A program made the position numbers and the translations under genes. A model generated the notes under the pieces. It had not been told where the DNA came from. It saw nothing but the letters and a program-made list of their open reading frames with translations, and did no database searches. Shown here piece after piece: positions 3,401 to 13,765 of a DNA stretch of 51,859 bases; position 1 is the stretch's first letter; each line of letters opens with the position of its first letter. The DNA comes from Thermoleophilaceae bacterium (lineage in GTDB: Bacteria; Actinomycetota; Thermoleophilia; Solirubrobacterales; Thermoleophilaceae), in NCBI GenBank assembly GCA_036378175.1, contig DASUWY010000053.1, positions 1-51,859 on the forward strand. The letters run 5' to 3'.

Positions 3401-4807
3401 ATGCCCGTCTGGTCGTCCGTCCGGTACGCACACAACGGCGACGTGTCGATCGCGTACACCACCGCGGGCGAGTCCGAGCTCGACCTGCTCGTCATACAGG
3501 GGTTCGTGAGCCACATCGAGACCTCGCCGTCGCTGCCGCTGGCCGAGCACTTCTACGACCGGCTCAGCTCGTTCGCCCGGATCATCGTGTTCGACAAGCG
3601 GGGCATGGGGATGTCCGACCGCGATTCCGGCAGCTACACGATCGAGAACGTGAGCGACGACGCCGTGGCCGTGCTCGACGCGCTGGGTGTGGAGCGCGCG
3701 GCCGTGCTCGGGATCTCGGAGGGCGGTACCGCCGCGACGATGTTCGCCGCCACGCATCCCGAGCGGGTGAGCGCGATGGTCCAGTACGGCACCTACGCGC
3801 GTCTGTCGCGAGCGCCGGACTATCCGCAGGGCATTCCGGTGGAGGAGATCCGGGGCTTCTATGACTGGCTGTTCGAGACCTGGGGCCAGGCATCGAGCGT
3901 GGCGGCGTGGGCGCCGAGCATGCGACACGACCCTGAGCTTGGGGACTGGTGGGCACGGCTCACGCGTTCGGGCGTGAGTCCGGGGGCGCTGCGGGCGATG
4001 TCGCTCATGCACGAGCAGCTGGACGTGCGGCCACTGCTCCCGGCTGTCCGAGCACCCACGCTCGTGATGTATCGCGCGGGTGACACGCTCATCCCTCCCG
4101 CCACGACCAGGACCGTGGCCGAGGGCATCGCCGGCGCGCGGGCGCTGGCCCTGCCCGGCCCCGACCATCTGTTCGTGGTCAACCACGACCGGATCGTCGA
4201 CGAGACCGAGGAGTTCCTCACCGGACGCCCGGTGGTGCCGGCGACGGATCGCGTGCTCGCCACGGTGCTGTTCACCGACCTCGTGGAGTCCACGAGGATG
4301 GCGGCCGAGCTCGGCGATAGTTCCTGGCGCAGCCTGCTCGAGAAGCACGAGCGCACTGCCCGTTCGCTGACCGAGCGCTTTCGAGGCCGCGTGGTGAAGA
4401 CCACGGGGGACGGTGTGCTCGCCACCTTCGACGGTCCCGCGCGGGCGGTGCGCGCCGCGCTCGCGATCCGCGATGCCGCGCAGGGTCTCGGCCTCGGTCT
4501 TCGCGCCGGGATCCATACCGGCGAGTGCGTGGCGCGAGGGGACGACCTCGCGGGAATCGCGGTGCACATCGCCGCGCGCGTTGAGGGCATGGCGCGGCCG
4601 GGCGAGGTGGTCGTGTCGAGCACCGTGCGCGACCTGGTGGTGGGCTCCGGGCTCGAGTTCGAGGACCGCGGGTCGCACGAGCTCAAGGGCGTGCCGGACG
4701 AGTGGCGTCTCTTCGCCGTGGTGGGCGACGCGGAAGGGTCACCGATGACTTCTGGGGAGCACGCGGGTCTCTACCCGCGTATGTCGACCACAAGAGGAGG
4801 CGCGTGA
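3401..4807 (+). CDS. Alpha/beta hydrolase fused to class III nucleotide cyclase
   Basis: 468 aa from the ATG at 3401; the frame is open to 3365 but the family begins at M-P-V-W-S. Residues 1-280 are an alpha/beta hydrolase with the nucleophile elbow G-I-S-E-G-G (Ser about 106) and a late His in G-P-D-H. Residues 285-455 are a class III adenylyl/guanylyl cyclase domain: F-T-D-L-V-E-S-T supplies one metal aspartate and T-T-G-D-G the other. The transition-state pair usually written N-x3-R reads H-I-A-A-R here, so the asparagine is a histidine. The same order of domains occurs in Mycobacterium Rv1900c. Product could be cAMP; activity is inferred. Its stop overlaps the next start (TGATG). Confidence 0.9.
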   Translation: MPVWSSVRYAHNGDVSIAYTTAGESELDLLVIQGFVSHIETSPSLPLAEHFYDRLSSFARIIVFDKRGMGMSDRDSGSYTIENVSDDAVAVLDALGVERAAVLGISEGGTAATMFAATHPERVSAMVQYGTYARLSRAPDYPQGIPVEEIRGFYDWLFETWGQASSVAAWAPSMRHDPELGDWWARLTRSGVSPGALRAMSLMHEQLDVRPLLPAVRAPTLVMYRAGDTLIPPATTRTVAEGIAGARALALPGPDHLFVVNHDRIVDETEEFLTGRPVVPATDRVLATVLFTDLVESTRMAAELGDSSWRSLLEKHERTARSLTERFRGRVVKTTGDGVLATFDGPARAVRAALAIRDAAQGLGLGLRAGIHTGECVARGDDLAGIAVHIAARVEGMARPGEVVVSSTVRDLVVGSGLEFEDRGSHELKGVPDEWRLFAVVGDAEGSPMTSGEHAGLYPRMSTTRGGA

Positions 4808-5550
4808 TGACCGCCCACACGATCGGAAGCCGCGAGGAATGGCAGGCGGCTCGCAATGAGCTGGCCAAGCTCGAGGCCGAATACGCCGAGCTCGGCCAGA
4901 AGGTCACGGAGGAGCGCCGCCGGCTTCCGTGGGTCCCGGTGGAGAAGGAGTACGAGTTCGACACCGAGGAAGGGAAGAAGACGCTTGCCGAGCTGTTCGA
5001 AGGGCGCGCGCAGCTGCTTGCCTACAACGTCATGTTCGGCCCGGATTACGAGCTCGGCGGGTGCCCGGGCTGCACGAGCCTCGCGGACGAGCTGAGCGAC
5101 ACGCTCGTGCACCTGAACCATCGCGACGTCACGATGATCTGCTTCTCGCGCGCGCCCATCGAGCGCCTGACCGCGTACAAGGAGCGGATGGGCTGGGAGT
5201 TCCCGTACGTCTCCACCTACGGCACGGACTTCCCGTTCGACTTCGGCCTCGCGCTCAAGCCCGAGCAGGCGGAGGCCATCCCCGAGGTGAAGGGAATGAT
5301 CGACGACCCGCCGGAGTGGCTCGAGGAATGGAGCCGCCAGATCGGCGCCGGCCTCGAGGACGGCCTGCGGGAAGCGCCCGGGTACATCGCGTTCGCGCGT
5401 GAGAACGGCACCGTGTACCACACCTACACCGTCACGGCACCGGATCCGTTCGTCGCGCCGTACCACTCGTTCCTGCTCCAGCGGACCGCCAGGCCAGAGG
5501 AAGCGGAGCCGCGCGCCTGGCGCAAGGACGAGTACCCCGACGCTGCTTAG
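4807..5550 (+). CDS. DUF899 thioredoxin-like protein (copy 1)
   Basis: 247 aa. The ATG at 4807 overlaps the cyclase stop and has a strong GAGGAGG site at 4794-4800. DUF899 proteins have a thioredoxin fold of the AhpC/TSA type and are often next to ArsR and SRPBCC genes. Visible marks are a charged N-terminal helix, L-P-W-V-P-V near residue 40, and G-G-C-P-G-C-T-S near residue 83 giving a CxxC pair. It ends in D-E-Y-P-D-A-A. A paralogue lies convergent on the other strand, the two stops overlapping. Function is unknown; a redox or detoxification role is inferred from the fold. Confidence 0.88.
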   Translation: MTAHTIGSREEWQAARNELAKLEAEYAELGQKVTEERRRLPWVPVEKEYEFDTEEGKKTLAELFEGRAQLLAYNVMFGPDYELGGCPGCTSLADELSDTLVHLNHRDVTMICFSRAPIERLTAYKERMGWEFPYVSTYGTDFPFDFGLALKPEQAEAIPEVKGMIDDPPEWLEEWSRQIGAGLEDGLREAPGYIAFARENGTVYHTYTVTAPDPFVAPYHSFLLQRTARPEEAEPRAWRKDEYPDAA

Positions 5551-5558
5551 TACTCGTC
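5527..5558. repeat. Inverted repeat at the meeting point of two convergent paralogues
   Basis: GACGAGTAC at 5527-5535 is matched perfectly by GTACTCGTC at 5550-5558, with 14 bases between. Each arm encodes the terminal Asp-Glu-Tyr of one of the two DUF899 genes, so the repeat is formed by the same codons read from opposite strands. It could act as a two-way transcription stop, but there is no T-run and coding constraint is enough to explain it. Confidence 0.6.
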
Positions 5559-6281
5559 GTGGCGCCGCACCCAGAGCGGCTCGGTGGCACTCTCGTCGCG
5601 TCCCTTCGGCGTGCGGTCGAGCAGCGCGTAATACGCCATGCCGGGGGCCTCGAGCCCGCGCGCCGTGGTCACGTACGTCCGGTAGACCGTCCCGTCCGAG
5701 AGCGCGTACACGCTCAGGCCCGGCCCCTCGGTCACGTAGCCGAGCGCGTCGGTTCCGCACATCTCCGCGTTCTGCTCGACGGTGGCGGGAATGTTGCCGC
5801 TGTCGAGCCAGGGCCGGAGCTCCTCCTCGGTGTTGAGGAAGCCGATGTCGCGGTTGAAGTCGTTGTCGTCGCTGGACGCCCAGGGGATGCTCCAGCCCAT
5901 CCGCCGGCGGTAAGCGAGCAGCTGGTCGAGCGGCGCCCGCGAGGCGAGCATCAGGGTGGTGTCCCGCGCCGCGAGGTGCGGCACCTGCGGATTGAGGGTG
6001 TCTGCGATCGAGGTGCACACCGGGCAGCCACCGGCGCTGTACTGAGGGCCGAACATGAAGTGGTAGATCACGAGCTGAGAGCGCCCGCCGAACAGCTCGG
6101 CGAGCGTCCTCTCGCCGTCCTCGGTGTCGAAGACGTACTCCCTCTCCACCGGCACCCACGGCAGCTCGCGCCGCTTCTTCGTCAGCTCGTCGCCGCGGCG
6201 CGTGAGCTCCTTCTCCTGCTCGAGCAGCGCGTCGCGCTCCGCCTTCCACTCCTCCTGCGTGCCGATCCTGTGCTGTGTCAT
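5547..6281 (-). CDS. DUF899 thioredoxin-like protein (copy 2)
   Basis: 244 aa from the ATG at 6281, which has AGGAG at 6288-6292 with six-base spacing; an upstream in-frame ATG at 6287 would sit inside that site and is less likely. It is a clear paralogue of the neighbouring DUF899 gene: L-P-W-V-P-V, F-D-T-E-D-G and G-G-C-P-V-C-T-S all align, and both end near D-E-Y. The CxxC pair is kept. The gene is divergent from an ArsR regulator with a palindrome over that regulator's start, so it may be under ArsR control. Role unknown; probable redox protein. Confidence 0.88.
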   Translation of the reverse strand: MTQHRIGTQEEWKAERDALLEQEKELTRRGDELTKKRRELPWVPVEREYVFDTEDGERTLAELFGGRSQLVIYHFMFGPQYSAGGCPVCTSIADTLNPQVPHLAARDTTLMLASRAPLDQLLAYRRRMGWSIPWASSDDNDFNRDIGFLNTEEELRPWLDSGNIPATVEQNAEMCGTDALGYVTEGPGLSVYALSDGTVYRTYVTTARGLEAPGMAYYALLDRTPKGRDESATEPLWVRRHDEY

Positions 6282-6313
6282 GGCCATCTCCTGTTTGCGG
6301 GTCGCCGTATATA

Positions 6314-7780: not shown

Positions 7781-8392
7781 ATGCGTGCCGACATCGTCCC
7801 CGGCGCTCGTTTTCCCGACTACGAGCTCACCGACACCGACAAGCAGCGGCGCAAGCTGAGCGAACTTCAGGGAGGCGATCCGATGATCCTCCTCCTGTCG
7901 CGCGGACACTTCTGCCCGAAGGATCACCAGCAGCACCTCGAGCTCGCGGCCTTCCATCCGAAGATCGCTGTGGCCTACACCAAGATCGTGACCATCTCCA
8001 CCGACAACATCCTCGAGGGCCGGGAGTTCAAGGCCTCGGTGGGCGCGCAATGGCCGTTCCTCTGCGACCCGGGGCGCAAGGTTCAGAAGGACCTCGATAT
8101 CCAGGAGTACACGGACCCCCACCACGATCCGATGATTCCCCACACCCTCGTGCTCGACCCCGGCCTCGTGATCCACAGGATCTACAACGGCTACTGGTTC
8201 TGGGGCCGCCCCTCGACGCACGAGCTGTGGCAGGACCTGCGCGAGGTCACGCGCAAGATCCGCCCGGACTGGGAGCTGTCCGCGCCCGGCCTGCGGGAGC
8301 AGTGGGAGAAGGGCGACAAGTCGCACTTCTGGCCGTACGACGAGGAAGCGGCGCGCGAGATCGAGGCGGTGGTGAGCGCGAGCCACCGCTAG
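7781..8392 (+). CDS. Peroxiredoxin-like (AhpC/TSA redoxin) protein
   Basis: 203 aa from the ATG at 7781 with a clear AAAGGAG site. Redoxin domain at about residues 5-160: P-G-A-R-F-P-D-Y-E-L near the start and S-R-G-H-F-C-P-K-D near residue 45, where the cysteine stands in the peroxidatic position but the usual P-x3-T/S-x2-C surroundings are altered. A C-terminal extension is rich in Trp and charged residues. It may reduce peroxides or act as a thiol oxidoreductase; the non-standard active site makes the substrate uncertain. Confidence 0.82.
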   Translation: MRADIVPGARFPDYELTDTDKQRRKLSELQGGDPMILLLSRGHFCPKDHQQHLELAAFHPKIAVAYTKIVTISTDNILEGREFKASVGAQWPFLCDPGRKVQKDLDIQEYTDPHHDPMIPHTLVLDPGLVIHRIYNGYWFWGRPSTHELWQDLREVTRKIRPDWELSAPGLREQWEKGDKSHFWPYDEEAAREIEAVVSASHR

Positions 8393-8395
8393 CGG

Positions 8396-9130
8396 TCAGA
8401 ACGGCAGCCGCCGGAACACCGCACGCGGCAGGTGCCGCACCACCCACATCAGCGGGCGCATCGCGGCGGGCACCCACACCGTCTCCGATCCATGCGAGAG
8501 GCCACGGGCGATCGCATGGGCCACCTGCTCCGGCGTGGCGGACAGCGGCGGCGCCTTCATTGACGCGGTCATCTTCGTCCTCACGAAGCCCGGGCGCACC
8601 ACCATCACGCGCACGCCCGTGCCGGCGAGCGAATCCGCCAAGCCCTGCGCAAACCCGTCGAGCCCGGCCTTCGAGGCGCCGTACACGTAGTTCGCGCGGC
8701 GCACCCGCTCGCCCGCCACCGAAGACAGCACCACGATCGTGCCGTGCCCCTGACGCACCATGCGCCTGGCGAGTGGCTCTAGCACCGCCACCGCGGCCAC
8801 GAAGTTCGTCTCGATCACGTCCACCGGATCCCCGGTGAGGACGCCGAAGGCGAGCAGCACAAGGTCGATCTCGCCGAAGCGCGCGAACGCGTCGTCCACG
8901 AAGCGCTCGTGGTTCTCGCGCTCGAGCGCGTCGAAGCGGAGTGTGTCCACCTGACCGGCCCCCGCGCGCCTGAGATCCTCCACCGCCGGCCCGGCGGCGC
9001 GAGGGTCGCGGCACGCGAGCACCACCCGGCGCGCGCGGCCGTTCACGAGCGTCCTGGCGGTGGCCACGCCGATCTCGGACGTGCCGCCGAGCACGAGCAG
9101 CGACTGCACCGAGCCGAGCGCGTCCCTCAC
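8396..9130 (-). CDS. dprE2: DprE2-like short-chain reductase (decaprenyl-P-arabinose synthesis)
   Basis: 244 aa SDR. Its GTG start at 9130 overlaps the dprE1 stop. Nucleotide site G-G-T-S-E-I-G near residue 15, N-F-V near 110 and catalytic Y-x3-K in Y-G-A-S-K near 148. In mycobacteria DprE2 reduces the 2-keto intermediate made by DprE1 to decaprenyl-phosphoryl-beta-D-arabinose using NADH. Placement directly after dprE1, with overlap, supports that assignment over a generic SDR. The C-terminal R-R-L-P-F tail is basic, as in membrane-associated members. Confidence 0.87.
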   Translation of the reverse strand: MRDALGSVQSLLVLGGTSEIGVATARTLVNGRARRVVLACRDPRAAGPAVEDLRRAGAGQVDTLRFDALERENHERFVDDAFARFGEIDLVLLAFGVLTGDPVDVIETNFVAAVAVLEPLARRMVRQGHGTIVVLSSVAGERVRRANYVYGASKAGLDGFAQGLADSLAGTGVRVMVVRPGFVRTKMTASMKAPPLSATPEQVAHAIARGLSHGSETVWVPAAMRPLMWVVRHLPRAVFRRLPF

Positions 9131-10482
9131 TTCTGCAGTCCGAGACGGCGCGCGAGGTCCGAGCGCATCGCCCCGGCGGGGTCGAGCCGCGCGCGAACCT
9201 CGCGCCAGCGCGGAAGCTCCGGATACATGGCCTCGAGCAGCTCAGGCCGCAGGCGCGAGTCCTTGGCGAGATACACGCGCCCGCCGGCCTCGGCGGTGAG
9301 CTCGTCGAGGCCGTCGAGCAGCTCGGACAGCTGCGGGGCATCCGCGGGCAGGTCCATTGCGAGCGTCCAGCCCGGCAGCGGGAACGAGAGCAGGCCCTCC
9401 TGAGGGCCGAAGCGCTTGAGCACCGCGAGCGTGGCCGGCGCCGGCGATGCGGCCAGGCGTTCGAGCACCTCGCGCATCGCGTGCTCGCTGCCCAGCGGCA
9501 ACGCGAGCTGGTACTGCACGAGCCCGCGCCGCCCGTACACGCGGTTCCACCCCGCCACGGAGTCGAGCGGGTAGAAGAAGCGGTCGAGCGGTGTGAGGCG
9601 CTCGGCGCGGACGGGCGCGCGGCGGAAGTAGACCTCGTTGAACACCGCGACGGTCTCGCGCCGCACGAGGCCCGAAGGCAGCCACGGCGGCGCCGCCAGA
9701 GGGAGCCGTTGGGGAAGCTCGAGCGGCTTTGCCCGCGCTGGGCCGGAAAGCATCTCGACGGGCGCGTGGTCGCCCTGCATGAGGACGGACCTCCCCAGGC
9801 GATTTCCGCGCGCGAGGCAGTCGATCCAGGCGACGGAGTAGCGGTGCGACGCGTCCGTGGAGGCGAGCCCCTCCATCGTCGCGTCGAGGTCCGGCGCGCG
9901 CGCCACCTGCTCGGCGATGTAGGCGGTCTCGATCCTGATCGGTGTCAGCGTTGCCTCGAGCACGATCCCCGTGAGCCCCATCCCGCCCGCGGTGGCGAAG
10001 AACTCGTCAGGAGTTGTGGCGCGGTCCAGCGTGAGGCGCTCTCCGGCCGGCGACTGGAGGACCAGCGATGTGACGTGTGCGCACAGGCTGCCGTCAACGT
10101 GGTGGTTCTTCCCATGAACGTCGGCGGCGATCGCGCCTCCCAGGGTGACGTGCTGCGTGCCGGGCGTGACCGGGAGGAACAGCCCGAACGGCAGCAGCGC
10201 GTTCGCCAGGTCCTTGAGCGACACCCCTGCTTCGGCGGTCACGCTCGGGGTGGCGCGATCGATCGCCTTGATTCTCGACATCGCGGTCATGTCGAGCACG
10301 AGGCCGCCCGCGTTCTGCGCGGCGTCGCCGTAGCTCCTCCCAAGCCCGCGCGCGAGCACGCCGCGCTCGCCGGGGTGACGGAGCAGCGCCGCCACGTCGG
10401 CCGCTCCGGCGGGGGTTCTCACACGCGCGCGGGTGGCGGCGGTGCGCCCCCAGCCGCTCAGCAGCCTCTCCTCGGTACTCAC
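9127..10482 (-). CDS. dprE1: DprE1-like FAD oxidase (decaprenyl-P-ribose 2'-oxidase)
   Basis: 451 aa; the GTG at 10482 overlaps the ubiA stop. The N-terminal FAD domain carries A-R-G-L-G-R-S-Y-G-D near residue 45 and H-G-K-N-H-H near 120 (the His-rich site of the family), and the C-terminal substrate domain carries Y-G-R-R-G-L-V-Q-Y-Q and A-K-D-S-R with the conserved lysine near 407. Oxidises polyprenyl-phosphoryl ribose to the 2'-keto form. The residue aligned with the benzothiazinone target cysteine (Cys387 in M. tuberculosis) is Ala about 375 here. About the same length as the mycobacterial enzyme. Confidence 0.92.
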   Translation of the reverse strand: MSTEERLLSGWGRTAATRARVRTPAGAADVAALLRHPGERGVLARGLGRSYGDAAQNAGGLVLDMTAMSRIKAIDRATPSVTAEAGVSLKDLANALLPFGLFLPVTPGTQHVTLGGAIAADVHGKNHHVDGSLCAHVTSLVLQSPAGERLTLDRATTPDEFFATAGGMGLTGIVLEATLTPIRIETAYIAEQVARAPDLDATMEGLASTDASHRYSVAWIDCLARGNRLGRSVLMQGDHAPVEMLSGPARAKPLELPQRLPLAAPPWLPSGLVRRETVAVFNEVYFRRAPVRAERLTPLDRFFYPLDSVAGWNRVYGRRGLVQYQLALPLGSEHAMREVLERLAASPAPATLAVLKRFGPQEGLLSFPLPGWTLAMDLPADAPQLSELLDGLDELTAEAGGRVYLAKDSRLRPELLEAMYPELPRWREVRARLDPAGAMRSDLARRLGLQK

Positions 10483-11399
10483 CGTGGTGCCCCGCCCACC
10501 GCCACGATCACCGCCGCCGTGACTGCCCAGAGCACGATGCACGCGAGCAGCGGCCGATCCCGCAGCACCGTGAGCGCCGGCTCGTCGGCGAGGCCGTCCG
10601 GACGGTGGAGCAGGTACAGCACGCGGAAGATGCCGTAGAGCACGAACGGCACCGTGAGCAGCATCCAGTGGCTGCGCGCGCCATTCACGGCATAGAGGCA
10701 ATAGACCACCAGAGTGGCGGGTGTGACCACTGCGATCAGGTGGTCGAGAAGGGGCACCGTGTAGTCGTCGCGCACGAGCTGGCGCGGGGCCATTCCGGGC
10801 GACACGGCCTCGCCCCGGCGCTTCACCAGGCCGAGGAACGTGGCCAGCAGGCCCATGGACAGAAGAAGCCACGAGGACACCGGCACGCCCACCGCCAGCC
10901 CACCGGCCACAGCCCGGAGCACGAATCCGGCGGCGATCGCCATCACGTCGACGAACAGCACCTGCTTGAGCCGGTACGAGTAGGCGAGCTGGAGCGCGAG
11001 GTAACCGAGGAGCACCACCAGCGCTGCCGGGTTCACAACACCCGCCAGCGCGAGCGCCAGCGCGGCCGCCGGGGCGGCCACGGCAAGCGCGACGCCCGGG
11101 GACAGATCGCCCCGCGCGATCGGCCGCAGCGCCGTACGCGGGTTGAGCGCGTCCGCGCCGGCGTCGCGCACGTCGTTCACGAGATAGGTGGCGCCACTCG
11201 CGAGGCAGAAGGCGGCGGTCACGGCCAGGGCCTGAAGAACCGCGTCCGGGTGGCCTAGCCTGCCCGCGAACACAACTCCCGCGAGCACGAACGCGTTCTT
11301 CACCCAGTGCCGCGGCCGCATCGACACGACCACGAGGCGGGCGCGGTATAGCCGCATGCTCGACGTGCCGGCCGTAGCAATTGGCATCACCGCGCCCAT
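10479..11399 (-). CDS. ubiA: UbiA-type polyprenyl-phosphate phosphoribosyltransferase
   Basis: 306 aa with about eight membrane helices. The Asp-rich prenyl site N-D-V-R-D-A-G-A-D near residue 75 matches N-D-x2-D-x3-D. In mycobacteria the homologue (Rv3806c) joins 5-phosphoribosyl diphosphate to decaprenyl phosphate, the first step before dephosphorylation and epimerisation by DprE1/DprE2. The stop overlaps the dprE1 start, and the gene follows the membrane phosphodiester-glycosidase-like gene with a 3-bp gap, so all four are one transcription unit. UbiA homologues for quinone or haem synthesis exist, but the position argues for the arabinan pathway. Confidence 0.88.
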   Translation of the reverse strand: MGAVMPIATAGTSSMRLYRARLVVVSMRPRHWVKNAFVLAGVVFAGRLGHPDAVLQALAVTAAFCLASGATYLVNDVRDAGADALNPRTALRPIARGDLSPGVALAVAAPAAALALALAGVVNPAALVVLLGYLALQLAYSYRLKQVLFVDVMAIAAGFVLRAVAGGLAVGVPVSSWLLLSMGLLATFLGLVKRRGEAVSPGMAPRQLVRDDYTVPLLDHLIAVVTPATLVVYCLYAVNGARSHWMLLTVPFVLYGIFRVLYLLHRPDGLADEPALTVLRDRPLLACIVLWAVTAAVIVAVGGAPR

Positions 11400-11402
11400 T
11401 GG

Positions 11403-12770
11403 TCACCTGAGATAGACCGCGAAGAAGTCGCGATCGTCGGGAGTGAGGTAGCGGGTGGCTGGGCGCGCCATGTCCGGCAGCAGGCTGCTCGCGCCGCGGC
11501 CACCGGTGTACGCGTAGCTGTTGAGCGTGACCCAGGCCGTGTTGATGTCGAGCTCCACCGCGCGCACGGCCCCCGCGTGTATGAGCATGCGCGCGAGCGA
11601 GCTCACGGACTGGTACGGGGCCGCCGCGTAGATGAGGTTGCCGTGGCGATCGACACCGACCCCGGAGCGCCAGACCAGGATGGCGTTGCCGAGCGTCGCG
11701 CCCCACTGCGGGCCATCGCTGAGGTTGGGATTGGGCCGGTGGTGGTCGACGATCAGCGGAAGGTTCTGGCGTGCGAATGCGATGCTCGAGGGCGGTGCAG
11801 GACCGCCCTGCCACGCGCGCACGTCAAGGCGGCCGGTGGTGGTCCCGACGATCGTGCCCTGACCGGGCCGCAGCGGCTCGAAGAGGTGTCCGGCGCTGAA
11901 GAAGCCGCCGTTCGAGTCCGCGTGCTTGAAGCCGCTGTTGAAGGTGGCCAGAAGCTTCGTGAGTCCCGAAGCGGGCACCGCATGCGGTCCGGTTGCGCCG
12001 GGCGGCTCCTGCATGCCGGTGTAGAGCGCGAGGTGGGTGCGGAGGTGGTTGATCCAGGCGAGGCCCGCCACCACGCGCGGGTAGCTCGGGTCCGGCCGGT
12101 AGGTCGTTACCAGCACGGGCGGCGACGGCTCGTGCGCGAAGCGCGCCTGCGTCACGCGCCATACCCCTTCGCCGGGGAGAGCCGGGTGGATCACGGGCGT
12201 GATGTCGCGCGGGCGGTAGGCGGGATGCGGGCGCGGTGCGGTTGGCACCGGAGTCGCGCGGTGTGGCAGTTGATGGGTGAGCACCGGTGCCGCTGCCACA
12301 CCTGCCACCTCGAGATGCTTCAGCGCCGGGCCGCCCTTCGCCGGCGCCGTGATCGAGTAGTAGATGCGCTCGACCTCCGACACGAGCGAGCGCCCGCCGT
12401 TGTCCCGCAGCCACTCCACCGAGCGGATCGAGAGCGAGGAGTTCGACGGACGCGTCATCGCGGCGATGTAGGAGATCGCCGCCGGCACCAGCACGATCGC
12501 GGCTGCGAGCGTGGCGATGCGTCCCGCCGCCTGAGGCGCCGTGCGGCCGCGCGGTCTGCGCGTGCCCCGGATGCGCCTGATGAGCACGGTGGCGGCGTCT
12601 GCCAGGCCGAGCACCACCAGCGCGGCGGCGGCGATCAGAGCGCCGGGTCCCAGCCCGGGCCGCAGTGCGAGCGCAAGGAGCGCGACCACAAGTGCCGCGA
12701 TTCCCACTTCGGCCAACACGCGAGACACCCCGTTCGGACGGCGCCTCGGCAGAGCAGCTTGGGACTGCAC
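11403..12770 (-). CDS. Membrane-anchored phosphodiester-glycosidase-like protein
   Basis: 455 aa from a GTG at 12770 with GAGGAG at 12775-12780 (the frame is open to 12824). Three hydrophobic helices lie in the first 120 residues, then a long Pro/Arg-rich linker and an extracytoplasmic domain resembling the NAGPA/phosphodiester glycosidase family (PF09992): N-S-G-F with G-G-F-F near 275-290 and V-E-L-D-I-N-T-A-W near 405, where the family usually has L-D-G-G-G-S. First gene of the ubiA-dprE1-dprE2 operon. Polyprenyl-phosphoryl arabinose is itself a phosphodiester glycoside, so it may act on that lipid or on a sugar-phosphate link in the wall; this is inference. Confidence 0.72.
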   Translation of the reverse strand: MQSQAALPRRRPNGVSRVLAEVGIAALVVALLALALRPGLGPGALIAAAALVVLGLADAATVLIRRIRGTRRPRGRTAPQAAGRIATLAAAIVLVPAAISYIAAMTRPSNSSLSIRSVEWLRDNGGRSLVSEVERIYYSITAPAKGGPALKHLEVAGVAAAPVLTHQLPHRATPVPTAPRPHPAYRPRDITPVIHPALPGEGVWRVTQARFAHEPSPPVLVTTYRPDPSYPRVVAGLAWINHLRTHLALYTGMQEPPGATGPHAVPASGLTKLLATFNSGFKHADSNGGFFSAGHLFEPLRPGQGTIVGTTTGRLDVRAWQGGPAPPSSIAFARQNLPLIVDHHRPNPNLSDGPQWGATLGNAILVWRSGVGVDRHGNLIYAAAPYQSVSSLARMLIHAGAVRAVELDINTAWVTLNSYAYTGGRGASSLLPDMARPATRYLTPDDRDFFAVYLR

Positions 12771-12827
12771 CCCACTCCTCACGACGGGAAAACCCCCGCA
12801 ACAGGATCCTCCGCGGGAAGCCAAATT

Positions 12828-12837
12828 CCCTTAAGGG
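12828..12837. promoter_or_regulatory. 10-bp palindrome in a divergent promoter region
   Basis: CCCTTAAGGG is a perfect palindrome between the phosphodiester-glycosidase-like gene (minus strand, starts 12770) and the FkbM gene (plus strand, starts 12890). It could be an operator shared by both directions. It is short and no regulator is encoded beside it. Confidence 0.3.
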
Positions 12838-12889
12838 TCAGGTGAGACTTCGCTTACCGGGAGAGGTTTCATAAGGTGGCGCTTAACCG

Positions 12890-13765
12890 ATGGTCTTATC
12901 TCGAGCCTGGCGCCGCCGCATACTCCGCCTGCTCCGCTCCATCGGGGTGGAGGCCGCGACCATTGGTCCGGGATCCGGCGTGCTGGGCCGCCGGGGTCGC
13001 GCCCAGGTTCGAAAGCTCACCGCTGGAGCAGTGCTGGCCACCGACCGCGGGCTCGCCCGCGAGGAATGGTTCGAAATGGAGACCGGGCTCGCCGAGTACC
13101 TCGCACACGGACATGTGGCGGCGGTCATGGACATGTACGGGGTCAACTGCGTCCTGGACGTCGGCGCCAACCGCGGCCAGTTCGGGATGCGTCTCCGCGA
13201 TGCCGGCTACCGCGGCCACATCGCCTCGTTCGAGCCCGTGCCCGAGACATTCAGGCAGCTGCGCCGCACCGCCGAGCGGGATCCGGAATGGACGGTCTAT
13301 CCCTGGGCACTCGGGCGGGAGGAGGGTGAAGTGCCTATGAACGTCGTGGTCGACACGCTCAGCTCGATGCTGCCCGCCACGAGCTTCGGGGCCCGCCGCC
13401 ACCCGCGTCTGCGGAATCCCACGACAGTCGACGTTCCGGTCCGGCGATTGGACTCGATCCTCGATGAGGTCCTCGCAGAGGTGTCCGATCCGCGGCCCTA
13501 TCTCAAGCTCGACACGCAGGGCTACGACCTCGAGGTGTTCGCCGGACTGGGCGAGCGCGTGGCGGACTTCGTCGGACTGCAGTCGGAGGTCGCTCTGCTG
13601 CAGCTCTACGAGGGCATGCCGCGGATGCCCGAGGCGCTCGCCGCCTACGAGGCGGCAGGCTTCGAGATCACCGGCCTCTATCCGGTGAGCCGCGATGTAC
13701 GGACGGCGCGCGTGCTCGAGTTCGATTGCGTGATGCTGCGGAGCGAGGCTAGGCAGCGACGCTGA
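12890..13765 (+). CDS. FkbM-family methyltransferase
   Basis: 291 aa from the ATG at 12890; no good ribosome site is seen. SAM-binding motif L-D-V-G-A-N-R-G-Q-F-G at about residue 87, F-E-P-V-P near 107 and the FkbM signature Y-L-K-L-D-T-Q-G-Y-D near 205. FkbM enzymes O-methylate sugars or polyketides, often in glycan clusters. It is divergent from the arabinose-lipid operon, so methylation of a wall or exported glycan is a reasonable guess, not shown by the sequence. Confidence 0.9.
   Translation: MVLSRAWRRRILRLLRSIGVEAATIGPGSGVLGRRGRAQVRKLTAGAVLATDRGLAREEWFEMETGLAEYLAHGHVAAVMDMYGVNCVLDVGANRGQFGMRLRDAGYRGHIASFEPVPETFRQLRRTAERDPEWTVYPWALGREEGEVPMNVVVDTLSSMLPATSFGARRHPRLRNPTTVDVPVRRLDSILDEVLAEVSDPRPYLKLDTQGYDLEVFAGLGERVADFVGLQSEVALLQLYEGMPRMPEALAAYEAAGFEITGLYPVSRDVRTARVLEFDCVMLRSEARQRR

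Follow-up and report, generated by a model that had tools for sequence, protein, structure and literature searches.

In the literature that we examined, polyprenyl-phosphoryl-D-arabinofuranose (DPA) is treated as the arabinose donor of the mycobacterial wall polymers, where it is used by enzymes of the GT-C type. The mycobacterial and corynebacterial pathway comprises Rv3806c, DprE1 (Rv3790) and DprE2 (Rv3791). Outside the mycobacteria, D-arabinofuranose is also put on a surface structure by the TfpW system of Pseudomonas, whose transferase is a GT-C type protein as well. This system, which arabinosylates pilin, is named in PMC11841053 and PMC12369383. The bond cleaved by the known NAGPA enzymes is a sugar-1-phosphodiester (PMC12419801; PMC12024695). 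Here, we examine a stretch of 51,859 nucleotides from a Thermoleophilaceae bacterium, an actinobacterium of the soil (contig DASUWY010000053.1 of assembly GCA_036378175.1; hereafter the window), in which a membrane-anchored protein of NAGPA fold, G1, is encoded directly ahead of the three DPA pathway genes. Both the NAGPA fold and the DprE genes have been described before; no record of their stable union turned up in the literature that we searched, and this limited search yielded no paper joining a NAGPA/DUF2233 protein to DPA. We tentatively propose, at somewhat less than even confidence, that the four genes constitute one module in which G1 acts on the sugar-phosphate bond of DPA, most likely by the transfer of arabinofuranose.

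The four genes are tightly packed on the minus strand at 8396-12770, in the order G1, UbiA, DprE1 and DprE2. G1 (11403..12770, 455 amino acids) starts with a GTG at 12770, which is separated by a 4-nt spacer from a minus-strand GAGGAG (12775..12780) that reads as a likely ribosome-binding site, and it stops with a TGA at 11405-11403. A 3-bp gap lies between this stop and the ATG (11399) of UbiA (10479..11399, 306 amino acids), whose own stop overlaps the GTG start of DprE1 (9127..10482, 451 amino acids) by 4 bp at 10482-10479; a second 4-bp overlap, at 9130-9127, joins the DprE1 stop to the GTG start of DprE2 (8396..9130, 244 amino acids). No promoter- or terminator-like sites were found in 8200-13200, a result that is uninformative for a GC-rich actinobacterium.

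Judged from their sequences, the last three genes are a UbiA-type decaprenyl-phosphate phosphoribosyltransferase resembling Rv3806c, the FAD-dependent polyprenyl-phosphoryl-ribose 2'-oxidase DprE1 and the polyprenyl-phosphoryl-2-keto-pentose reductase DprE2, a member of the short-chain dehydrogenase/reductase group. UbiA matches Pfam PF01040 (6e-22); its best NCBIfam match is the decaprenyl-phosphate phosphoribosyltransferase NF008977 (3.6e-62), where its 210 bits fall short of the curated equivalog cut-off of 234, and its best match among PDB structures is 8j8j, which is Rv3806c (1e-34). Among the Rv3806c residues with assigned roles in binding phosphoribosyl pyrophosphate (PRPP) and Mg (PMC10994848), the window UbiA keeps all six of K28, N73, D77, Q135, Y138 and K143, and K208 is not conserved. 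DprE1 and DprE2 both pass their curated equivalog cut-offs (531 bits against 500 for NF053785, and 306 against 250 for NF053786), and DprE1 matches PDB 4aut at 2e-103. All four DprE1 positions tested, the FAD-binding and catalytic residues Y60, H132, K367 and K418, are kept. The locus thus has the same three enzymes as the mycobacterial pathway, here in one operon and with their catalytic residues; unlike that pathway, the operon is led by G1 and has neither an Emb or Aft gene nor a phosphatase gene beside it. The window DprE1 also differs from that of Mycobacterium tuberculosis in having Ala aligned to Cys387, the cysteine targeted by benzothiazinones, and Thr in place of Asn385. Of the other non-mycobacterial DprE1 copies checked, nearly all have the same Ala, and enzymes that carry it would be expected to be naturally insensitive to covalent DprE1 inhibitors.

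G1 has a C-terminal NAGPA-fold domain (residues about 188-455), preceded by hydrophobic segments at about 15-35, 42-67 and 78-106, which are predicted to be three membrane helices; most of its relatives have one. Taken alone, it scores 16.5 bits (E=0.01) against Pfam PF09992 (NAGPA), below the gathering cut-off of 25 bits, but all 24 of the family members searched match this profile at E<=0.1, the best at 4.5e-9. The AlphaFold model (mean pLDDT 83.7, with most of the NAGPA-fold domain above 90) matches 3ohg, 5h3k, 6ozd and animal NAGPA at Z 17-21 over some 220-240 residues, and no unrelated structure exceeds Z 4. In a comparison of the G1 profile with PDB sequences, 5h3k and NAGPA were recovered, the other matches being mainly repeat-like and due to chance. 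An earlier interpretation, made from the letters alone (the sequence-only reading), had placed four overlapping or 3-bp-spaced genes at these coordinates, assigned the last three to the route from polyprenyl phosphate to arabinose and given the first one three membrane helices and a NAGPA-type domain. All of this has held, and an unrelated fold, which would have undone its interpretation of G1, is not what the model shows.

The fold is that of the NAGPA/DUF2233 phosphodiester glycosidases (the mammalian uncovering enzyme; BACOVA_00430, 3ohg; Slr0280, 5h3k), with which the stretches RSxxGVdxxGNLi and GAVxAxxLD can be aligned. Identity to these enzymes is nevertheless 14-18%, G1 is anchored in the membrane, and the canonical DGGGS and QAGP motifs, both kept by another NAGPA protein of the same genome, are replaced, so that G1 belongs to a distinct family within this fold. 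The residues invariant in a set of 24 G1 sequences include E119, W120, R122, G146-147, R334-Q335-N336, R368-S369, D408-I409-N410 and W413, and a juxtamembrane EWLRDNG...KGG motif is conserved. Hydrophobic segments 2 and 3 are joined by an Arg-rich loop, a feature consistent with a location of the NAGPA-fold domain outside the cell. With three helices and a soluble-type domain, G1 lacks the GT-C multi-pass membrane fold; in this it would differ from the TfpW transferase, and its fold is unrelated to that of AftA, the galactan 5-O-arabinofuranosyltransferase (GT-C, PDB 8if8).

The linkage of G1 with the DprE genes is real and more than a chance neighbourhood. In a sample of 249 Thermoleophilia genomes, with DprE1 called above 320 bits, DprE1 was found in 25, G1 in 36 and both in 18, where 3.6 would be expected (Fisher 2e-12), and in 396 genomes from across the phylum G1 was found in 27, DprE1 in 63 and both in 22 (12 families; p=4e-15), both p-values ignoring shared ancestry. 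Where the two genes co-occurred they were adjacent in 15 of the 18 class genomes and 15 of the 22 phylum genomes, and 12 of 23 G1 loci from named genomes adjoin UbiA-DprE1-DprE2. On a tree of 66 G1 domains about 10 changes are needed to account for the DprE linkage, supported branches forcing at least seven of them, and not one of 500 label shuffles gave a number as low as that observed. The sequence-only reading had proposed a search for the same gene order in relatives; it is the association that is conserved, in two or more classes, whereas the exact order varies among five arrangements. G1 comes first in the window and in L072, L073, L088 and L139, between UbiA and DprE1 in L134, and last in L127 and L135; it is divergent in most Solirubrobacterales loci (e.g. 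L005-L007, L010-L012) and convergent in a fifth group (Acidimicrobiia; L021-L023, L125-L132). When the neighbours at 38 loci were clustered, G1, UbiA, DprE1 and DprE2 were the only widely common set, the other common neighbours being lineage-bound and mostly housekeeping genes by appearance; no dedicated transferase or phosphatase gene was found there as a conserved neighbour of the four. In one genus (g38) a gene of the GtrA family lies just upstream of G1; Rv3789, located beside the mycobacterial pathway genes, belongs to this family.

In the mechanism that we envisage, UbiA would load 5-phosphoribose from PRPP onto polyprenyl phosphate, a phosphatase, for which we identified no gene, would remove the 5-phosphate, and DprE1 and DprE2 would epimerise C2 to give DPA. 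The tethered NAGPA-fold domain of G1 would be extracytoplasmic, at the membrane face where DPA would be, and could there act on the sugar-C1-O-phosphate bond of DPA or of a close lipid-linked pentose. Since the sugar-1-phosphodiester cut by known NAGPA enzymes is of the same bond class as that in DPA, their activity lends support to such a substrate. The four genomes in which G1 lies instead beside another UbiA with the PRPP-binding residues of Rv3806c also speak for the proposal. Most likely, G1 would move arabinofuranose to an envelope acceptor and free the polyprenyl phosphate. A bolder form of this proposal, which we regard as doubtful, is that G1 is the first DPA-dependent arabinofuranosyltransferase that is not of the GT-C type, a NAGPA-fold phosphodiester glycosidase turned transferase that takes the place of Emb and Aft in those non-mycolate actinobacteria that make DPA, Thermoleophilia and Acidimicrobiia among them.

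Several observations weigh against G1 as the user of DPA. The same genome encodes, on another contig (G000:C10:20982-22938; L121:8883-10838), a 651-residue AftA homologue with both AftA domains (AftA_N 2.4e-30, AftA_C 3e-11) and a match to PDB 8if8 at 2e-19, which gives this organism an orthodox and plausible DPA user outside the operon. The canonical QAGP has become RQNLP in the G1 family, and DGGGS, which follows an LxLD strand, has become D(I/M)NxxW in nearly all homologues. The closest relatives of the window G1 (L002, L003) were not seen to adjoin DprE genes. Eleven of the 36 class genomes with G1 lack both UbiA and DprE1, and many of these eleven belong to a separate clade, so the family is not tied to DPA alone, and in four genomes G1 adjoins another UbiA that has the PRPP-binding residues of Rv3806c, without DprE1 and sometimes with DUF362; such occurrences point to a wider substrate range or to several functions. 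Finally, the search in which neither AftA nor Emb was found in most of the other class genomes with G1 and DprE did not cover AftB, AftC and AftD, and other GT-C arabinosyltransferases may be present there.

Contamination as the source of contig C10 was judged unlikely, the tetranucleotide correlation with the operon part of the window being 0.993 and the GC content similar, and the idea that G1 stands in for a missing Aft in this organism is weakened by the AftA homologue. The sequence-only reading was thus correct in finding no Emb or Aft gene in the window, where we also identified none, but the absence of Aft does not extend to the genome, and a wholly separate arabinose-lipid system is not established for this organism. 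The idea survives for most other members of the class with G1 and DprE; across the class, AftA was found in none of the 24 other DprE1-bearing genomes and Emb in only one of all 25 (G085), which is without G1; Emb (PF04602) is also absent from the present genome. The AftA homologue adjoins two CDP-glycerol glycerophosphotransferase/GT2 proteins, a sulfotransferase and a GDPD gene, a neighbourhood that possibly serves an arabinosylated teichoic-acid-like polymer.

The occurrence of either partner without the other also brought several further loci to light. In L057 and L062 (G050, G062), a different UbiA with PRPP-site residues accompanies DUF362, an LPG-synthase-like membrane protein and G1, in the absence of DprE1, and could possibly form a polyprenyl-phosphoribose system; 80 of the 249 class genomes encode UbiA homologues of this type, mostly without DprE1. 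Conversely, four DprE1 genomes without G1 (G124, G224, G047, G085) offer other candidate DPA users, and in two of them (G124, G224) large multi-pass membrane proteins, of the PMT_2 type or of no known type, lie beside the DprE genes. In L075, L076 and L078 (G124, G224, G162), which have DprE and no G1, the DprE genes are accompanied by ABC-2/Wzt polysaccharide exporters and by large membrane proteins without a Pfam match, the latter being candidates for new arabinosyltransferases. At 4283-8411 of L077 (G047), DprE1-DprE2 have as neighbours a membrane protein with a weak resemblance to WsfD and a protein of DUF2961; DUF2961 is GH172, a family with D-arabinofuranosidases, which hints at a turnover of D-arabinan outside the mycobacteria. 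Elsewhere in the window itself, two DUF899 thioredoxin-like genes (4702-5550, plus strand; 5547-6287, minus strand) are arranged tail-to-tail with a 4-bp overlap.

Among the other explanations, hydrolysis survives best, although we consider it unlikely. G1 would then hydrolyse the arabinose lipid, or the ribose lipid that precedes it, and so recycle polyprenyl phosphate or set the level of the lipid, with the transfer of arabinose left to GT-C enzymes such as AftA. The characterised NAGPA enzymes are indeed hydrolases of sugar-1-phosphodiesters (PMC12419801, PMC12024695), this genome encodes an AftA homologue, and according to PMC3937683 benzothiazinones reportedly kill corynebacteria by blocking the recycling of decaprenyl phosphate. 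A futile cycle of synthesis and destruction would be costly, however, and the partner transferase is not evident elsewhere in the class, with AftA in none and Emb in one of 24 other DprE1 genomes. The trimming of sugar-phosphate links that the sequence-only reading had suggested is one of several possible activities of G1; that it trims or remodels, after synthesis, an arabinosylated or phosphodiester-linked glycan such as a teichoic-acid-like polymer seems to us quite improbable. Such a role would suit the NAGPA fold, and the genes beside AftA make a phosphodiester polymer with arabinose conceivable, but G1 is linked to genes for a lipid precursor, no polymer gene is a common neighbour in the loci examined, and the membrane tether and conserved juxtamembrane motif suit a lipid substrate. 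Slightly less credible still is a non-catalytic G1, a scaffold or regulator of a UbiA-DprE complex. The family-wide change of both canonical motifs is what this account has in its favour; the motifs that took their place are near-invariant in turn, and so are W, R, N and D residues distributed over the domain, which suggests that an active site of altered specificity has been kept, and G1 is also found without UbiA or DprE1. That G1 is merely a chance neighbour of an ordinary mycobacteria-like pathway feeding AftA is very improbable, for although DprE1 and DprE2 are orthodox and AftA is present, the linkage recurs in several families, at least two classes and five arrangements, and the co-occurrence data disfavour it.

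Distant actinobacteria of the soil share this conserved module of four genes, which suggests that the use of DPA extends beyond mycobacterial walls. A soluble-type fold that cuts phosphodiesters may have become a user of this lipid, and possibly represents an unrecognised route by which these bacteria build their envelope. If this is true, arabinofuranosyl chemistry would gain a tractable enzyme, and the way in which arabinose came into actinobacterial envelopes could be put to a test. The DprE1 copies with a natural Ala at the benzothiazinone-target position are useful for comparisons of drug binding.

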